Positions 24,515 to 33,036 of a DNA stretch of 64,000 nt are shown one piece after another (the first letter of the stretch is position 1; the number at the start of each line of letters is the position of its first letter). Source of the stretch: Natrarchaeobius halalkaliphilus (lineage in GTDB: Archaea > Halobacteriota > Halobacteria > Halobacteriales > Natrialbaceae); contig NZ_REFY01000003.1 of NCBI RefSeq assembly GCF_003841485.1, positions 62,001-126,000 on the forward strand. The letters are read 5' to 3'. Below the pieces are notes generated by a model. That model saw only the letters and a program-made list of their open reading frames with translations, was not told the origin of the DNA and did no database searches. Position numbers and translations under genes: made by a program.

Positions 24515-24976
24515 ATGACTATTAAACAGAGTAACCGCGGCCAAACTCATTTCGACTTTTTGATTGGATTTTCCGTTTTTATCGTTGCAGTCATGCTCGT
24601 CTTCGCCTCGGCGCCGCAGTTGATCGCCCCCTTTAGCGAGAGCGATGCGGCGGACCCGCTTCGAGCCGACCGAGTCGCCACCGATCTCGCGGAATCGACG
24701 TTCGTCGATACGCCATCCTCGACGCAGATCAATACGACGGCGGCTACGGCGTTCTTCGACGAACCCGACGACGTCCACACTACGGTCGGTCTCGATACCC
24801 GAACGCCGCTCAACATCTCTGTCGTCAGCACGGAGTCCGGAGAGCCGCTCTCGAGTAACGGCGTCGAGTACACGTTCGGTGAACCGGTCCCCGAACGAGC
24901 GGGGCAGGTCTCCGTCACGCAGCGGGTTCTTCAGGTGGACGACGAATCGTACTGGCTGTCCGTGAGGGTGTGGTAA
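24515..24976 (+). CDS. Prepilin-like protein 1
   Basis: A 153-residue protein with a class III-like signal: a short charged leader ending NRG at residues 7-9, then QTHFDFLIGFSVFIVAVML as a continuous hydrophobic helix. Prepilin peptidase (PibD) normally cuts after such an RG. The mature part is acidic with a beta-rich look. I recall this as a haloarchaeal DUF (DUF7287-like), not certain. It opens a run of five genes with two-base gaps or overlaps, so the products should act together at the cell surface or in a pseudopilus. Confidence 0.75.
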   Translation: MTIKQSNRGQTHFDFLIGFSVFIVAVMLVFASAPQLIAPFSESDAADPLRADRVATDLAESTFVDTPSSTQINTTAATAFFDEPDDVHTTVGLDTRTPLNISVVSTESGEPLSSNGVEYTFGEPVPERAGQVSVTQRVLQVDDESYWLSVRVW

Positions 24977-24978
24977 CG

Positions 24979-25566
24979 ATGGCACGAGGACAGATACACG
25001 CACTCGAGGGGATTTTGGCCGCGGTGTTGCTCGTGTTGAGCCTCGTCTTCGCACTCCAGGTGTCGGCAGTCACTCCGATGACCGAGAGTACGTCGAGCCA
25101 ACACATCGAGAATCAACAGCGAGCCGTTGGACAGGGGCTGCTCGAGGCGGCGGCCGAAGACGGATCGCTCAAAACCGCACTGTTGTACTGGGACAACGAC
25201 GCCGAGACGTACCACGGTTCGAACGAGGATCACCGCTACACCAGCGGTTTGCCGGACGACCTCCGGTTGGGATCCGAGCTTCGGCGGACGATCACCGAGC
25301 GGGGAATCGCTTTCAATCTCCACGTCAACTACGTCGACGACGGGGAAATCAGTTCTCGAACGCTCGTTACGCAGGGTGAACCAAGCGACCACGCCGTGAC
25401 CGTGACCGAGACGGTGACGCTCTTCGAGGACGACACGCTGTTCGATTCCAGCGGTGATCCCACCGACGTAACGCTTCAGGACGCCGAAGAGTTCTACGTT
25501 CCGAACGAAGCCGACGGGGCGCTATACAACGTGGTCGAAATCGAGTTGAGACTATGGCGGATGTGA
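24979..25566 (+). CDS. Prepilin-like protein 2
   Basis: A 195-residue protein beginning MARGQIHALEGILAAVLLV: an extremely short leader with RG at residues 3-4 followed by a hydrophobic helix of about 22 residues. The external part is acidic. ATG 24979 is two bases after the stop of gene 1; a GTG nine bases upstream is possible but would give a less typical leader. It overlaps the next gene by 13 bases. Function unknown; a minor pilin or pseudopilin role is inferred from the leader and context. Confidence 0.75.
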   Translation: MARGQIHALEGILAAVLLVLSLVFALQVSAVTPMTESTSSQHIENQQRAVGQGLLEAAAEDGSLKTALLYWDNDAETYHGSNEDHRYTSGLPDDLRLGSELRRTITERGIAFNLHVNYVDDGEISSRTLVTQGEPSDHAVTVTETVTLFEDDTLFDSSGDPTDVTLQDAEEFYVPNEADGALYNVVEIELRLWRM

Positions 25567-26516
25567 GGGGACGGGATGCGCCCCGGAGAGACGAGGATGG
25601 GTCGGTCCACCGCGGACAGCTCCTCCTCGTCATGGGAGTGATGATCGCGCTCACACTCGTGTTCCTCGCCGTCCTATTGAACAGCGTCATCTACGCGGAA
25701 AACCTCGGAACACGAGGGAGCGATATCGGCGGCAACGACGCCGTTCAGTTCGAATCGGCGGTTCAGGACGCCGGTGAAGGTTTCGTAACCGCGACAAATC
25801 GGGACGCGGACTCTCAGGATCACGACCCCCTCGTCAGTGAGTTCGACGAATCGATAGCGGACTGGGACGACCTGTCGAGATCTCATCTCGTCCGGGACGG
25901 ACACTACGCTTCGCTTTCGTTCGATCGGACGCCATCCAGCCCGTCGAATGGATCACAGATCCGACAAAGTGAGAGCGGCTCGTTCCAGAACGCCAACGAC
26001 GAGAGCGCTTGGGCCGTCGTCGAGAACGCCGACGTTCGAAACTACTCGATGACGATCCACGACGTGAGTGACGACTTTCTGCTGTCGGTTTCGACCGCCG
26101 ACGGGGAGTGGAACCTGACCGTTGGGGACGGAAGCGAGACGACGGTAACTACGGAGAGAGACGGAAACGTCATCGCCGACTGTACGGTGCACGACGAACC
26201 GTTCGAGATCGATTTCGTCGCCGGAACGGTCGATGGCGACTACTGTAACGGTGAGCCGGTGACGTTCGCGGGAGATCTCGAGGCACCCTACGGAACGATC
26301 GAGTACGCAAACGCCAGCGCGGTCGAAGGGACGTACACGCTGACGGTGAACAGTACCGACCCCCTGTCGTCGAACAGCTTCAACCAACCGGGCGAGGACG
26401 AGCCGGTTGCCGTCGCCGGAATCTACGCTGCCGACGTTTCGCTGATGTACGAAACCGAGCGAATCGAGTACGAATCGACCGTCACCGCCGCCCCAAACAC
26501 TCATTATGGACGATAG
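25554..26516 (+). CDS. Prepilin-like protein 3 (largest of the coupled set)
   Basis: A 320-residue protein. After a 20-residue hydrophilic leader, HRG at 19-21 precedes QLLLVMGVMIALTLVFLAVL, a long hydrophobic helix that fits a PibD-processed N-terminus. The external domain is large, acidic and rich in Ser, Thr and Asn, with several N-glycosylation sequons (for example NYS, NLT, NAS, NST). The overlaps with both neighbours (13 and 11 bases) imply translational coupling. By size it could be the tip or adhesive member of the set. Confidence 0.72.
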   Translation: MADVRGRDAPRRDEDGSVHRGQLLLVMGVMIALTLVFLAVLLNSVIYAENLGTRGSDIGGNDAVQFESAVQDAGEGFVTATNRDADSQDHDPLVSEFDESIADWDDLSRSHLVRDGHYASLSFDRTPSSPSNGSQIRQSESGSFQNANDESAWAVVENADVRNYSMTIHDVSDDFLLSVSTADGEWNLTVGDGSETTVTTERDGNVIADCTVHDEPFEIDFVAGTVDGDYCNGEPVTFAGDLEAPYGTIEYANASAVEGTYTLTVNSTDPLSSNSFNQPGEDEPVAVAGIYAADVSLMYETERIEYESTVTAAPNTHYGR

Positions 26517-26952
26517 AGCACTTTCGACCGCGTTGAGTTACGCCCTCTTGCTCGGCGTTACCGTGATGCTCATGGGTGGTCTCTCGGTGGCCGCCGGCGG
26601 ATTGCTCGAGTCCCAACACGAACGTGCCGTCGAGGCCGAACTCGACGTGATCGGAGAACGCGTCACAGCGGACCTCCAGACTGCGGACAGACTCACGCAC
26701 ACGGCGGGCGAAACCGAATCCCTCGCCGTTCGCTCTTCGTCACCGCAGCTCGTGAGTGGTGGCCACTATACGATCGACGTCGTCAACGGTGGCGAGGAGA
26801 CGACGCTCGTGGTCGAGAGCGCGGATGTCGACGTCACCACCGAAACGACCGTCCCGACCACGACGCCGGTCGCAGAGACGACGGTTATCGGGGGGGAACT
26901 CGAGATCACGTACGACTCCGAAAGCGACGAGCTGGTGATTGCGAATGGATGA
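26506..26952 (+). CDS. Prepilin-like protein 4
   Basis: A 148-residue protein starting MDDRALSTALSYALLLG: the leader ends in DRA at 3-5 and is followed by a glycine-containing hydrophobic helix. The remainder has a helix (ESQHERAVEAELDVIGERV) and then a Thr/Val-rich beta region with repeated TT and VP pairs. The helix after the membrane segment is the shape expected of type IV pilin alpha-1. It overlaps gene 3 by 11 and gene 5 by 8 bases. Confidence 0.74.
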   Translation: MDDRALSTALSYALLLGVTVMLMGGLSVAAGGLLESQHERAVEAELDVIGERVTADLQTADRLTHTAGETESLAVRSSSPQLVSGGHYTIDVVNGGEETTLVVESADVDVTTETTVPTTTPVAETTVIGGELEITYDSESDELVIANG

Positions 26953-27724
26953 CCGTGGAGTAACCGAACTGATCGGGTACTCGATCATCTTCGGTCTGGT
27001 GTTGCTGTCGTTCAGCATGCTCTTTCTCGTTGGCACGACGACCGTGAGCGATTCTCGAGACCGAACCCAGATCAACAACGCCGAGGCCGCGTTCGAAATC
27101 CTCGCTTCGAACATGGACGATCACGCGAACGATCGGGAGGTCGGCCGAGCAACCGAGATCAGAGTTACGGATGCAGCCCTCTATTTCGGTCCGAGCGAAT
27201 CGGTCAACGTAACCGTGTCCCCGGACGGATCTGAAGACAACGTGACAGTGTACGATCGGTCCACGGAACCGATCGTCTACGAAACTCAGCAGGGAGAACG
27301 TGTCGTGTACTCGAACGGAGCGGTGTTTCGAGAGGACACGGACACCAGCCGAATGGTCCGAGAGCCACAGACGAAAATCGACGAGAATCGAACCGTACTT
27401 CCACAGGTTCGGTTTACGAGTACAGAAGGTGGAATCTCGGTCGGCGGATCACAGACCGTCCTCGTCCGAACGGAACGCCTCACGTCGAGATTCGAACAGA
27501 ACACCACCTCCGATGGCTACGAACTCGAAATCGAGATCACGACCGACGAACGTCGCGGGGACGCCTGGAGGTCGTACTTCGGATCGTACGAACTGCTCGA
27601 GTGTGCCGAGAGCGACGTGGTCGAGCAGCCCGACGGGAACGTCGCCGTAACCTGCGAGACGACTGGTCAAATGACGAGTGAAATCTACGTTCCTGAAACG
27701 AGACTTCAGGGGGAGATCAACTGA
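26945..27724 (+). CDS. Prepilin-like protein 5
   Basis: A 259-residue protein starting MDDRGVTELIGYSIIFGLV. The DRG at 3-5 and a glutamate three residues after it match the archaeal type IV prepilin pattern better than any other member here. A helix with INNAEAAFEILASNMDDHA follows the membrane segment, then an acidic beta-rich domain with two Cys (LLECAES and VTCETT) that may form a disulfide. Its last eight bases overlap the end of the convergent sixth gene, so the transcripts are antisense at their 3' ends. Confidence 0.76.
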   Translation: MDDRGVTELIGYSIIFGLVLLSFSMLFLVGTTTVSDSRDRTQINNAEAAFEILASNMDDHANDREVGRATEIRVTDAALYFGPSESVNVTVSPDGSEDNVTVYDRSTEPIVYETQQGERVVYSNGAVFREDTDTSRMVREPQTKIDENRTVLPQVRFTSTEGGISVGGSQTVLVRTERLTSRFEQNTTSDGYELEIEITTDERRGDAWRSYFGSYELLECAESDVVEQPDGNVAVTCETTGQMTSEIYVPETRLQGEIN

Positions 27725-29081
27725 ACCGGACGTCGGCCGTGTTCTCCGTGATCTGTAGATACGTCACGAATCCTTCGGCTTCGTAATCGATGTACCCCTC
27801 CGACTCGTCGTGATCGACCCGTTGAGCGCCGGATTTGTCTTCCACCGTTAGATCCACGTTCGGTCCGTACGCTTCGATCGTCTCGTTGAACAACGCCCCG
27901 AGTTCTCTCTCCGAACCGCTCGCGTTCTGTGCGATCACGTCGCTCGTCAAGTTGATCGTGACCGTTTCCGGGTCCGCACTCTGATTCACTTCGAACGCGT
28001 CCTCTGCCGTCCACTCCTCACCGGTTGCATCCGTGATCGTCGTATCGACGCCGCCGTGTCCCTGTCCGTGGACGTTAGCCACCTCCGTTCCGTCGACCTC
28101 GAGGCTCCAGTCGAGATTGTTCAGCCCCGAACTCCCGTCGCCGGCCAGCGTGAGCGTGAACTCGTTTATCGGGTCGTCTTCCTGAGCGGCCCGTATCCTG
28201 ATGTCTCCGCCGTCGCTCAGCGGTGTGAGGCCCTGATCGCCCAGCGTGATTAATTCGACGTTCACCGTTTCGTTTTCGTGGTCGACCGACACGTTCCCTT
28301 GCGTTCGGTCCTGGAAGTAGCGCTCCCAGCCGAGGTAGTACTCGCTGTGAACCGTCACCTCGACCGTTCCGTTCTCGATCGGGTTTTGATACACCGTTCC
28401 ATCGTCGTACGTTCTCGAGCTGTTGGGAAAGATTCGTTCCGTCTCGCTCGTTCGCTGAGCGACGATGTCGGTTTTCCCTGTTCGCTGTCCGTCCCCCGTC
28501 ACGTTGATTATCGGCAAGGTGAGCGTGCCGTATCGGTAGTGGAATTCGGGCGGGGAGACCATCGTGGTGTGGTCCCCATCGTGCTTCCAGACGCCACCAC
28601 CCTGGTACGCGATCGTCTCCCCATCGGTGGCGTACGTGATCTCACCGAGCGAGAACGTCTCGTTTCCGATCAACTCGCCAGTATCAGTCCCGGTCCGATT
28701 GTAGTGAGTGATCTCCATTCGACCCGCCGTTTCGTTGACGCCGTACGTGCCGCTCTGACCACTGACCGAAACCGTCTGCGCCGTCGACTCTCCGAGCGTC
28801 ACTTCCGATATCTTCGATCCGACGAGCGAGAGTTCGTTTTCGGCGGCACCGACTTCGGTCGTCTGCTGGTGGCCGTCCACGATCGCCATTCCAGCCAAAA
28901 ACAACCCCGTCGCTGAAATGATCGAAAATCCCAAAAGCAATACCAGGCCGATGATCTCCGATTGCGAACGCTCGTCCGGATTTGTTTCCGCGATCGAATC
29001 CGGGCGTGGGCCACTACTACTCACTGTGCGTGAGTCACAGCACACTGATAAAATAGTATCGGTAATTAGTATGTCATGCAA
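27717..29081 (-). CDS. Prepilin-like protein 6, divergently placed paralogue of protein 5
   Basis: A protein of up to 454 residues. NPDERSQSEIIGLVLLLGFS near residues 34-53 resembles the start of protein 5 (RG, short spacer, Glu, hydrophobic helix), so a PibD-type cleavage after RS is likely. The first about 30 residues from ATG 29081 may not be real, and a later start cannot be excluded. The helix after the membrane segment (TEVGAAENELSLVGSKI) and YLGWERYFQDRTQG echo WRSYFGSYELL of protein 5, so they look like paralogues. The external domain has many NxS/T sequons. It faces the five-gene operon tail to tail. Confidence 0.72.
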   Translation of the reverse strand: MHDILITDTILSVCCDSRTVSSSGPRPDSIAETNPDERSQSEIIGLVLLLGFSIISATGLFLAGMAIVDGHQQTTEVGAAENELSLVGSKISEVTLGESTAQTVSVSGQSGTYGVNETAGRMEITHYNRTGTDTGELIGNETFSLGEITYATDGETIAYQGGGVWKHDGDHTTMVSPPEFHYRYGTLTLPIINVTGDGQRTGKTDIVAQRTSETERIFPNSSRTYDDGTVYQNPIENGTVEVTVHSEYYLGWERYFQDRTQGNVSVDHENETVNVELITLGDQGLTPLSDGGDIRIRAAQEDDPINEFTLTLAGDGSSGLNNLDWSLEVDGTEVANVHGQGHGGVDTTITDATGEEWTAEDAFEVNQSADPETVTINLTSDVIAQNASGSERELGALFNETIEAYGPNVDLTVEDKSGAQRVDHDESEGYIDYEAEGFVTYLQITENTADVRFS

Positions 29082-29210: not shown

Positions 29211-30567
29211 CCCCGACCTACCGTGGTCGGGGATGAAGCCGACAACTCGTGAGACAAACCATTAACTGAACACATATGTAATCAAGAGACAGCGATGGAG
29301 TACAGTCACCGCTACCGCGCCTACCCGACAAGTGAGGTAGCGGAGCGACTGGAACATCATCTCGATGTTCATCGCCAACTCTATAATCACGTCCGCTGGG
29401 ACTACGAGCAAGCCCCAGAGGACGACAAACCGTCCGAGTACGGCCAGAACAACAAACTTCCCGAGTGGAAACGCAGGTGGCCGATATTCGCGGAGCTACA
29501 CTCGAAAGCCGCCCAGGCCACTGTCGCCCGCTTCCACCACAACCTCACCGTCCTGAGCGAACTCAAAGAGAAAGGATACAGCGTCGGTCGGCTCAAACGG
29601 CAAGTACCCATCGACTACCGAAGCGTGACGTACAACCAGAGTGGCTTCGACCTCGATGAAAAGAAGGCCACGACAAGTACGCGTACGTCCGCTTCAGCAA
29701 AATTGGCTGGGTGAAAATCAGGTACTCACGCCCGATTCCCGACCACACCACCATCAAAGAAGTCACATTCAAAAAGGAGACGACCGGCGAGTGGTTCGTC
29801 TCCTTCGGCCTCGAAACCGACGACGCCAATCTGTCCGAGAAACCCGCTGTAGACTCACTAGATGCGAGCAATAGCGTTGGGATTGATCTCGGTATCCAGA
29901 ACTACATCCACACCTCGGATGGTAAGACGGTGGATTGGCTCGCCCTCAAAGACGAGTACGAGCGATTGCGCCGAGAGCAACGCAAACTCTCACGGAAAGA
30001 ACACGGCAGCCGAAACTACGAGAAGCAACGGCTGAAGGTTGCCAAGGCAAAGCGTCGTATCCAGCGGAAGGTGCTGGACTTTCAGCACAAGTTGACGACG
30101 TGGCTCGTCAAGGAGTACGATGCCGTGTTCGCGGAAGACCTGAACGTCCAGAGTATGCTTCAGGGCGATGGGAACGCTCGGAATAAGCAGGATGTGGCGT
30201 GGCGACAGTTCATCACACTCCTCGAATACAAGGGCGACCTGTACGGGACGCACATCGTTCAGGTAGAAGCGCGAGGTACTACCAAAGAGTGCGCGGCATG
30301 TGGCGTGGAGACACCAAAGCCTATCTGGGTCAGGGAACACTCGTGCCCTTTGTGTGGGTTCGAGACAGACAGAGATGCGAATGCGGCGATAAACATCTTA
30401 CAGCGTGGGTTTTCTAAGTTAGGGCTGGGATGGCCCGAAACAACGCCTGTGGAGACTGTGACCGCTACGGAGGCCGATGACTTTCGAGAGGTGTCTGCAA
30501 GTCGCGTCATCGAAACAGGAAGCCTGCCCTCGTGAGAGCAGGATTCCCCGCGCCACCGTGCGCGGGG
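29211..30567 (+). mobile_element. IS1341-type (IS200/IS605 family) element, tnpB only
   Basis: The element has no tnpA and no terminal inverted repeats, as expected of this family, but has a subterminal hairpin at each end. The left hairpin is CCCCGACC (29211-29218), loop TACCGT, GGTCGGGG (29225-29232). The right hairpin is CCCCGCGC (30546-30553), loop CACCGT, GCGCGGGG (30560-30567). The true cut sites lie some bases outside the hairpins and cannot be fixed without a homologue lacking the insertion. It has landed 38 bases upstream of the MATE gene and probably supplies or separates its promoter. A guide (omega) RNA would be expected to end at the right hairpin. Confidence 0.8.
29295..30535 (+). 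pseudogene. tnpB: TnpB RNA-guided nuclease/transposase accessory gene, frameshifted
   Basis: Two frames encode one TnpB of about 412 residues. The first covers 29295 to about 29665 (ends in frame with FDLDEKK), and the second resumes with HDKYAYVRFSKIGWVKIRY and reads to the stop at 30535. One base is missing near 29665-29669, where GGGC is expected after AAGAAG. In the second part every catalytic element is intact: RuvC-I Asp in VGIDLGIQN, RuvC-II Glu in AVFAEDLNV, zinc ribbon CAAC/CPLC and RuvC-III Asp in TDRDANAAIN. Either the gene died very recently or the base call is wrong. An internal start at 29711 would give a protein without the N-terminal RNA-binding domain. Confidence 0.88.
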
Positions 30568-32204: not shown

Positions 32205-32644
32205 ACGATCCCCTGCTCGAGCGGATTTTCCGACCCAGAAAACGCCCGTCCGTTTCTAATACGGTCTTCGACGAATGCTCGATTGGGGGGCGAAACAGGC
32301 GCACTGTCCGACGCCGTCTCGGTCCCCACTGCCCAACGAGCGAACCGGACGATGACTGCCCTCGAGGATCGTTCCTCATCACGTCATCCCTCTCCCGACC
32401 CGTCCGATTCGCCGCCACCACGCAGTTGGTCGTGCTGTTCGAGCCACGACAGTGGCCATCGACAGCCGTCTTCGCTGTTCGCTTCGGCCCTCATCCGCTG
32501 GGTGACCTTTTGGCGCGTTCGGAGATTGGACGAATCTCGAGTAACGATCGGTAAGCTCTCAGACGGCTTGCCGTACCGATCTACCGCCCTATCTACGTCC
32601 CGTTCTCGGGTGTGTGGAGACCTGACGTACGACGCGCTGTTTCA
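32205..32644. other. Unassigned region bracketed by inverted palindrome copies C and D
   Basis: 440 bases between two oppositely oriented copies of the repeat. No frame here has a recognisable domain, the frames present are Ser/Arg-rich shadows, and I could not name a homologue. It may be spacer, a decayed gene or the cargo of a small non-autonomous element. The region has ordinary GC and no obvious promoter. Confidence 0.4.
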
Positions 32645-32727
32645 TACGGATTGCTGTAACGATTTACCGGCGCACCCGCGACCCGGGCAGCGGGTGCGCC
32701 GGTAACGACTTACAGTAAACCGTATCA
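32645..32727. repeat. Palindromic repeat, copy D (most symmetric)
   Basis: Read on the minus strand it begins TGATACGGTTTACTGTAAG, where TGA is the stop codon of the membrane-protein gene at 32725. The arms are about 36 bases each and match at roughly 29 positions. The innermost part CGGCGCACCCGC / GCGGGTGCGCCG is perfect around a ten-base centre GACCCGGGCA. This would form a very stable cruciform or RNA hairpin directly at the 3' end of the gene. Confidence 0.85.
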
Positions 32728-33036
32728 GTGGTGTCCGTACAGCGAGTACATGATCGCGACGAGGCCGAGCAGCCGACTCACGTTCTCGAAAAAGACCGTC
32801 ACGATACGGGCCGTATCGACGAGCGTGTTGATCCCGACGTTGATCAGGAACGGACACAGGGTGAGCAACAGAAGGCCGATCGAAAGATAGAGCATCGACG
32901 GCACGCCGTTCCGCCGGTAGCCGCGATACGCCTGGTAGGCGATGAGCGTTCCGAGGACCGCAACGAGAAAGAGACTACCGACGGTTAACAGTTCGAACAG
33001 CGACGCCTCGTCGATTCTGACAATATCGCCGCTCAT
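32725..33036 (-). CDS. Three-span membrane protein paired with a winged-helix regulator
   Basis: A 103-residue protein, MSGDIVRIDEASLF then three membrane segments and the end LVAIMYSLYGHH. The ATG at 33036 overlaps the TGA of the upstream winged-helix gene (ATGA), so the pair is coupled. This pairing of a winged-helix protein and a small membrane protein is repeated many times in haloarchaea. I recall the membrane partner as DUF7521, unverified. A signalling role, the membrane protein sensing and the wHTH responding, is an inference from the coupling. The stop codon is embedded in repeat copy D. Confidence 0.75.
   Translation of the reverse strand: MSGDIVRIDEASLFELLTVGSLFLVAVLGTLIAYQAYRGYRRNGVPSMLYLSIGLLLLTLCPFLINVGINTLVDTARIVTVFFENVSRLLGLVAIMYSLYGHH

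Follow-up and report, generated by a model that had tools for sequence, protein, structure and literature searches.

The window analyzed here is a stretch of 64,000 nucleotides (nt) from Natrarchaeobius halalkaliphilus (Natrialbaceae), corresponding to positions 62001-126000 of contig C3 (C3:62001-126000) in a genome of 3.5 Mb and 12 contigs. Between window positions 24515 and 29081 lie five overlapping genes on the forward strand and one convergent gene on the reverse strand, which an earlier note, made from the sequence alone, had described as prepilin-like genes with no pilus ATPase nearby. All six open reading frames were recovered at the coordinates listed below, in agreement with that note. 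The predicted prepilins are given with their lengths in amino acids (aa), Pfam matches, and leaders (^, predicted cleavage site).

24515..24976, forward strand: gene 1, DUF7287 prepilin, 153 aa (PF23958, E = 2e-33); leader ...SNRG^QTHFD, predicted cleavage before base 24542
24979..25566, forward strand: gene 2, DUF7288 prepilin, 195 aa (PF23959, E = 1e-61); leader MARG^QIHALE, predicted cleavage before base 24991
25554..26516, forward strand: gene 3, DUF7261 prepilin, 320 aa (PF23922, E = 8e-11); leader ...VHRG^QLLL, predicted cleavage before base 25617
26506..26952, forward strand: gene 4, DUF7266 prepilin, 148 aa, the smallest member (PF23928, E = 2e-22); leader MDDRA^LS
26945..27724, forward strand: gene 5, DUF7289 prepilin, 259 aa (PF23960, E = 4e-45); leader MDDRG^VTEL
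27717..29081, reverse strand: gene 6, convergent prepilin of DUF7289+DUF7308, 454 aa at most or 435 aa if started at the GTG at 29024 (PF23960, E = 4e-25; PF23985, E = 1e-9); leader ...DERS^QSEIIGLV

A prepilin rule requiring [RK][GASC] and then, within a few residues, 19 uncharged hydrophobic residues was passed by all six genes, compared with 5 of the 60 other predicted genes in the window and 10 of 114 genes from other stretches of the same genus; several of these background passes are pilins themselves. The cleavage motif is conserved over 82 to 142 homologues, with R at position -2 in 83 to 99%. The charged leader ending in RG, RA or RS ahead of a hydrophobic helix, on which the earlier note had based its description, was thus confirmed. 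With a charged residue at -2, G, A or S at -1, and the site placed before the hydrophobic helix, the six products are predicted archaeal type IV prepilins. The acidity ascribed to their domains also held (D+E, 14 to 18%). The proposed glycosylation-prone character applies to gene 6, which has 12 sequons, and in part to genes 1, 3, and 5 (2 to 5 each), but not to genes 2 and 4, which have none (background, ~0.28 per 100 aa).

Two types of cleavage site were distinguished. The families of genes 1 to 3 (DUF7287, DUF7288, and DUF7261) carry RG^Q, with Gln at +1 in 99 to 100% of members; in the gene 1 family both the +1 Gln and a +5 Asp are 100% conserved, and in two of the three families +5 or +6 is always an acidic residue. 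The families of genes 4 and 5 are of the RA^VS type, as known in PilA pilins. The RG^Q families therefore appear to form a substrate class distinct from RA^VS, despite the single A24 peptidase in the genome. Their conserved +1 Gln and the +5 Asp of gene 1 are shared with the EppA-processed pilins of Methanococcus maripaludis (PMC4371748); unlike in that system, the one A24 peptidase found here is not accompanied by a second, dedicated peptidase. Haloferax PibD reportedly shows little selectivity at +1 (PMC4371748).

Profile comparison identified genes 5 and 6 as true paralogues (E = 4e-48) with a tail-to-tail overlap of 8 nt, bearing out the suggestion that they face each other as paralogues. 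The N-terminal region of gene 4 is common to genes 5 and 6, and genes 1 and 2 are distant relatives. Gene 4 is the sole member of the six with a weak match to Pilin_N (PF07790; E = 0.0017), scoring 19.6 bits against a curated cutoff of 25.2, and is not counted as a member of that family; five true Pilin_N (PilA-like) members are encoded elsewhere in the genome. On the strength of its small size and this weak match, gene 4 is a candidate major pilin. DUF7289 has a fourth match in this genome (E = 1e-9; C2:397204-397881 of G000, locus L047), inside a 927-aa open frame that lies apart from both pilin sets.

Structures were predicted with AlphaFold2 for genes 2 and 5, from alignments of 59 and 50 homologues, respectively. 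The gene 2 model (predicted local distance difference test score [pLDDT], 92.5) has a kinked N-terminal alpha-1 helix followed by a beta sheet, and the gene 5 model (pLDDT, 92.9) has a 59-residue alpha-1 followed by an all-beta domain. Both models support the alpha-1-plus-beta plan of pilins, the outcome expected if the earlier description was correct.

Motor genes and peptidase elsewhere in the genome

Four T2SSE genes were found in the genome, encoding the archaellum ATPase, a PINA-like ATPase, a PilB accompanied by DUF7283 and DUF7286 genes (C1:543 kb), and a 1,127-aa PilB (C3:573 kb). The last of these is long, being extended at both its N and C termini, and is followed at C3:573-582 kb by PilC, DUF7287, DUF7288, DUF7261, DUF7266, and DUF7289, with the pilin genes keeping the order of the window set. 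This PilB fits the description, in the main text of Makarova et al. 2016, of the PilB4 locus, a Clade 2 system in which the haloarchaeal ATPase is long, with N- and C-terminal extensions, and has a dedicated pilin set, represented in Haloferax volcanii by HVO_1160 (PMC4858521). Its orthology with HVO_1160 is probable, as judged from Haloferax loci rather than from the H. volcanii gene itself.

The window set and this motor-linked operon lie on the same contig, ~490 kb apart. No PilB, PilC, or remnant of either was found in the window, and the idea that decayed motor genes lie near the module was rejected accordingly; the only A24 peptidase found in the genome is on C1, a different contig from the window. 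The earlier note was therefore right that no PilB, PilC, or peptidase gene is near, and the genome search that it had called for yielded one PilB4-PilC4 operon and one peptidase. Since no motor lies upstream, we do not treat the window genes as a full pilus locus but classify them as a motor-less variant of the PilB4-type pilin set.

Two side observations concern other motors. A PilB gene of ~590 to 740 aa is apparently missing or unassembled here relative to the congeners G001 to G003. A different type IV pilus-like locus (L007, 1116-10859) encodes a 656-aa PilB, a 568-aa protein in the PilC position, a DUF7283 protein, and a 1,183-aa DUF7286 protein.

Pilin-set lineages and their motors

To survey relatives of the set, we collected 20-kb stretches at DUF7287 matches in 61 genomes together with 80 named GTDB loci, for a total of 142 sets (the collections overlap, and some sets are counted twice). 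PilB and PilC lie upstream of 107 sets, PilC only upstream of 4, and neither upstream of 31, the last two counts being upper bounds because some contigs are cut. The codirectional order DUF7287-DUF7288-DUF7261-DUF7266-DUF7289 is present in the window and recurs behind PilB-PilC across the Halobacteria.

A tree of the five concatenated proteins separated lineage A (26 rows) from lineage B (80 rows) with a support of 100. Lineage A comprises the motor-linked sets of the sampled Natrialbaceae (except that of genome G010), those of some Haloarculaceae, and others, whereas lineage B is the usual set outside the Natrialbaceae. The window set falls in lineage B together with two Natrarchaeobius chitinivorans sets, a placement with which the DUF7288 tree agrees, whereas the genome's own motor-linked operon falls in lineage A. 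Next to the window and N. chitinivorans sets stands the set of G010, a member of the Natrialbaceae in which PilB-PilC lie convergent to the set. Nested as it is in a tree of motor-linked sets, the window set belongs to the PilB4-type pilin sets. A recent duplication of the genome's own operon was considered and rejected, the two sets belonging to different deep lineages.

The lineages also differ in the convergent gene. Among sets with at least 2.5 kb visible downstream, a convergent DUF7289 gene accompanies 70 of 88 B sets versus 4 of 41 A sets and is therefore a regular, lineage-specific part of the B cassette; the tail-to-tail distance is 30 nt or less, or the genes overlap, in 39 of 76 cases.

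The B set stands without an adjacent motor in Natrarchaeobius and in most Haloarculaceae, with no motor within ~9 kb upstream in Haloarcula, Halorientalis, Halapricum, and Halosimplex. A full-length PilB4 orthologue (74 to 85% identity) was present in all 14 examined Haloarculaceae-type genomes with a motor-less B set. In 11 of these it is followed by PilC and a lineage A set, and in 3 by PilC without an adjacent set, 2 of these 3 having a B set ~8 kb further on. In Halorientalis marina and in strain HArc-gm2 (loci L132 and L151), an A set with a motor and a B set without one lie in tandem, ~8 kb apart.

The PilB tree tracks taxonomy whichever set adjoins the gene: the PilB of Haloarcula argentinensis, next to an A set, groups with that of H. 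rara, which adjoins a B set (two long branches, the G010 and G032 proteins, are not placed reliably). The same motor lineage has therefore been linked to either cassette, and the pilin sets seem to be interchangeable cassettes of a single motor lineage. This linkage offers the strongest case for PilB4-PilC4, 490 kb away, as the probable motor of the unlinked Natrarchaeobius B set. The PilB4 operon adjoins tRNA-Arg(CCT) in several families (L005, 8113-8185; also L050, L059, L087, and L094), which suggests that this neighborhood is its ancestral location.

Proposed assembly of the motor-less set

Taken together, these results make it likely that the six genes constitute a complete lineage B cassette of pilins for the PilB4-type type IV pilus system of haloarchaea, probably processed by PibD and assembled by PilB4-PilC4 in trans. 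The earlier proposal of a pilin or minor-pilin module using motors encoded elsewhere is thereby the best-supported reading, given that the same five genes stand behind PilB-PilC here and across the Halobacteria. The six proteins would be exported by Sec, cleaved by PibD before the hydrophobic helix, and stored in the membrane as mature pilins; the distant PilB4-PilC4 would then extract them from the membrane and, by way of the alpha-1 helices, build a filament or a tip complex. Gene 4 would perhaps supply the main subunit and genes 5 and 6 large minor pilins, with one motor thus serving two alternative or mixed sets. Export, cleavage, membrane storage, and extraction are established steps for archaeal type IV pili (PMC4371748). 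We advance as a tentative possibility that a cell runs two complete, deeply diverged cassettes on one PilB4-PilC4 motor and that haloarchaea could thereby change or combine entire pilus types, depending on which cassette is expressed.

Several points weigh against assembly by PilB4-PilC4. Foldseek comparison of the gene 2 and 5 models with the PDB, run without a known-pilin positive control, returned no chain at E ≤ 0.001, the top matches of gene 2 being mostly unrelated ribosomal proteins, and sequence searches for relatives of solved structure gave none that were significant; because neither model matched a PDB chain at that threshold, architecture and sequence are the basis for the term "pilin fold." At 98.7% completeness, the assembly could lack a further motor, and the genome has four T2SSE genes versus five in congeners. 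The DUF7286-type PilB on C1 could also be the partner instead of PilB4. These last points, the second nonarchaellum PilB and the fifth T2SSE gene of the congeners, would favor assembly by another motor of the same cell, either the C1 PilB/PilC or a PilB3-like motor absent from the assembled contigs, and H. volcanii PilB3 is able to replace PilB1 (PMC6491452). We nevertheless consider another motor unlikely: every motor linked to the set in the survey is of the PilB4 lineage, and the C1 PilB is very distant from that lineage, with at best 28% identity to any row, and lies among unrelated DUF7283/DUF7286 genes.

Without a motor nearby, the six proteins might instead form a static, pseudopilus-like membrane complex or an adhesion or sensor complex that never polymerizes. 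A pseudopilus of the type II secretion kind would be accompanied by a secretin or other type II secretion parts; archaea are not known to have an outer membrane. Their six differing domains, including the large DUF7289 proteins, look more like a minor-pilin complex than a major-pilin array, and membrane pilins have been proposed to give the residual adhesion of a pilB3-C3 mutant (PMC6491452). However, ATPase and PilC are linked to the same set in most genomes, such that an assembly motor is normal to its working, and all examined genomes with an unlinked set keep PilB4. A static complex is thus improbable, and the sensor or adhesion role that the earlier note had offered found no specific support. 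A decaying remnant of a pilus operon acquired by transfer and since deprived of its motor would account for the missing motor, for the different addresses of the set in congeners and its absence from the syntenic site in two of them, and for the decayed TnpB gene adjoining it. We regard decay as very improbable. All six reading frames are unbroken in three genomes, and motor-less B sets persist throughout the Haloarculaceae. Ratios of nonsynonymous to synonymous substitution (dN/dS) for the window set were 0.20 to 0.42 for genes 1 to 5 against N. chitinivorans AArcht7 and, for gene 6, 0.23 against AArcht7 and 0.14 against AArcht4T, similar to those of the motor-linked A-set pilins (0.26 to 0.34), with all ratios rough because dS is near saturation. 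The set is thus maintained under purifying selection.

Known systems and genomic setting

Relative to the PilB4-type locus, the window set has the same pilin families in the same order, and Haloferax relatives have a lineage B set with the convergent DUF7289 gene; it differs in lacking an adjacent PilB/PilC and in that the genome's PilB4 operon holds a separate, lineage A set. As in the H. volcanii PilA1-PilA6/PilB3-C3 system, the pilins are encoded apart from the motor that would assemble them and a single PibD is present (PMC4858521, main text; PMC6491452; PMC4371748). Unlike here, where six genes of other families form one set, PilA proteins are of the Pilin_N family and encoded by separate genes. 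Genes 5 and 6, paralogues of 259 and 454 aa, fit the description of the arCOG02911 minor pilins, which according to the main text of PMC4858521 are common to Clade 2 systems, ~250 to 550 aa long, prone to duplication, and all-beta; arCOG02911 probably equals DUF7289. The same text describes the reverse case, duplicated ATPase/TadC loci without pilins.

Pilins encoded apart from their motor, and motors serving several pilin sets, are already published ideas. New relative to the main text of PMC4858521 are a complete, motor-less six-gene cassette, its deep split from the cassette that accompanies the motor in this genome, the repeated occurrence of the motor-less arrangement in Haloarculaceae with PilB4 retained, and the lineage-specific convergent gene. 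A search of one collection of papers for DUF7287, DUF7288, DUF7261, DUF7266, DUF7289, and DUF7308 by name found none, and these Pfam families of unknown function gain a pilus-related assignment here. The published idea of archaeal PilB/PilC pairs working with different pilin sets (PMC4858521, main text) is made concrete as two cassettes and one motor, in genera (Haloarcula and Natrarchaeobius) that grow in culture.

Within Natrarchaeobius, three congeners were searched: the six-gene set is also present in N. chitinivorans AArcht7 and AArcht4T, and congener G002 has the motor-linked set only. The right flank (window ~32.7 to 42 kb) is kept in three other genomes as far as the fetched stretches reach. 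The set adjoins this flank in the window genome and AArcht7 and is absent from that site in G002 and AArcht4T; the AArcht4T copy lies near apparent topoisomerase VI genes, as judged by eye. These differing sites imply that, in this genus, the set has changed position or has been acquired and lost. The B set may have entered Natrarchaeobius by transfer, or it may be inherited from an ancestor that carried both.

An IS605-type TnpB gene (window 29295-30535) and an adjoining MatE gene separate the pilin set from the flank common to AArcht7; the TnpB gene is present as two overlapping frames (a helix-turn-helix part and an OrfB/TNB part) and is probably frameshifted. A mobile element with flanking tRNA repeats was considered and rejected: the repeats flanking the AArcht4T pilin set on both sides are not tRNAs but copies of an imperfect palindromic repeat of ~85 bp, resembling miniature inverted-repeat transposable elements or repetitive extragenic palindromic sequences. 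This repeat is dispersed in the genus, with copies at window 32642-32729, at L051 4587-4667 and 10034-10121, and in L006, L008, and L064.

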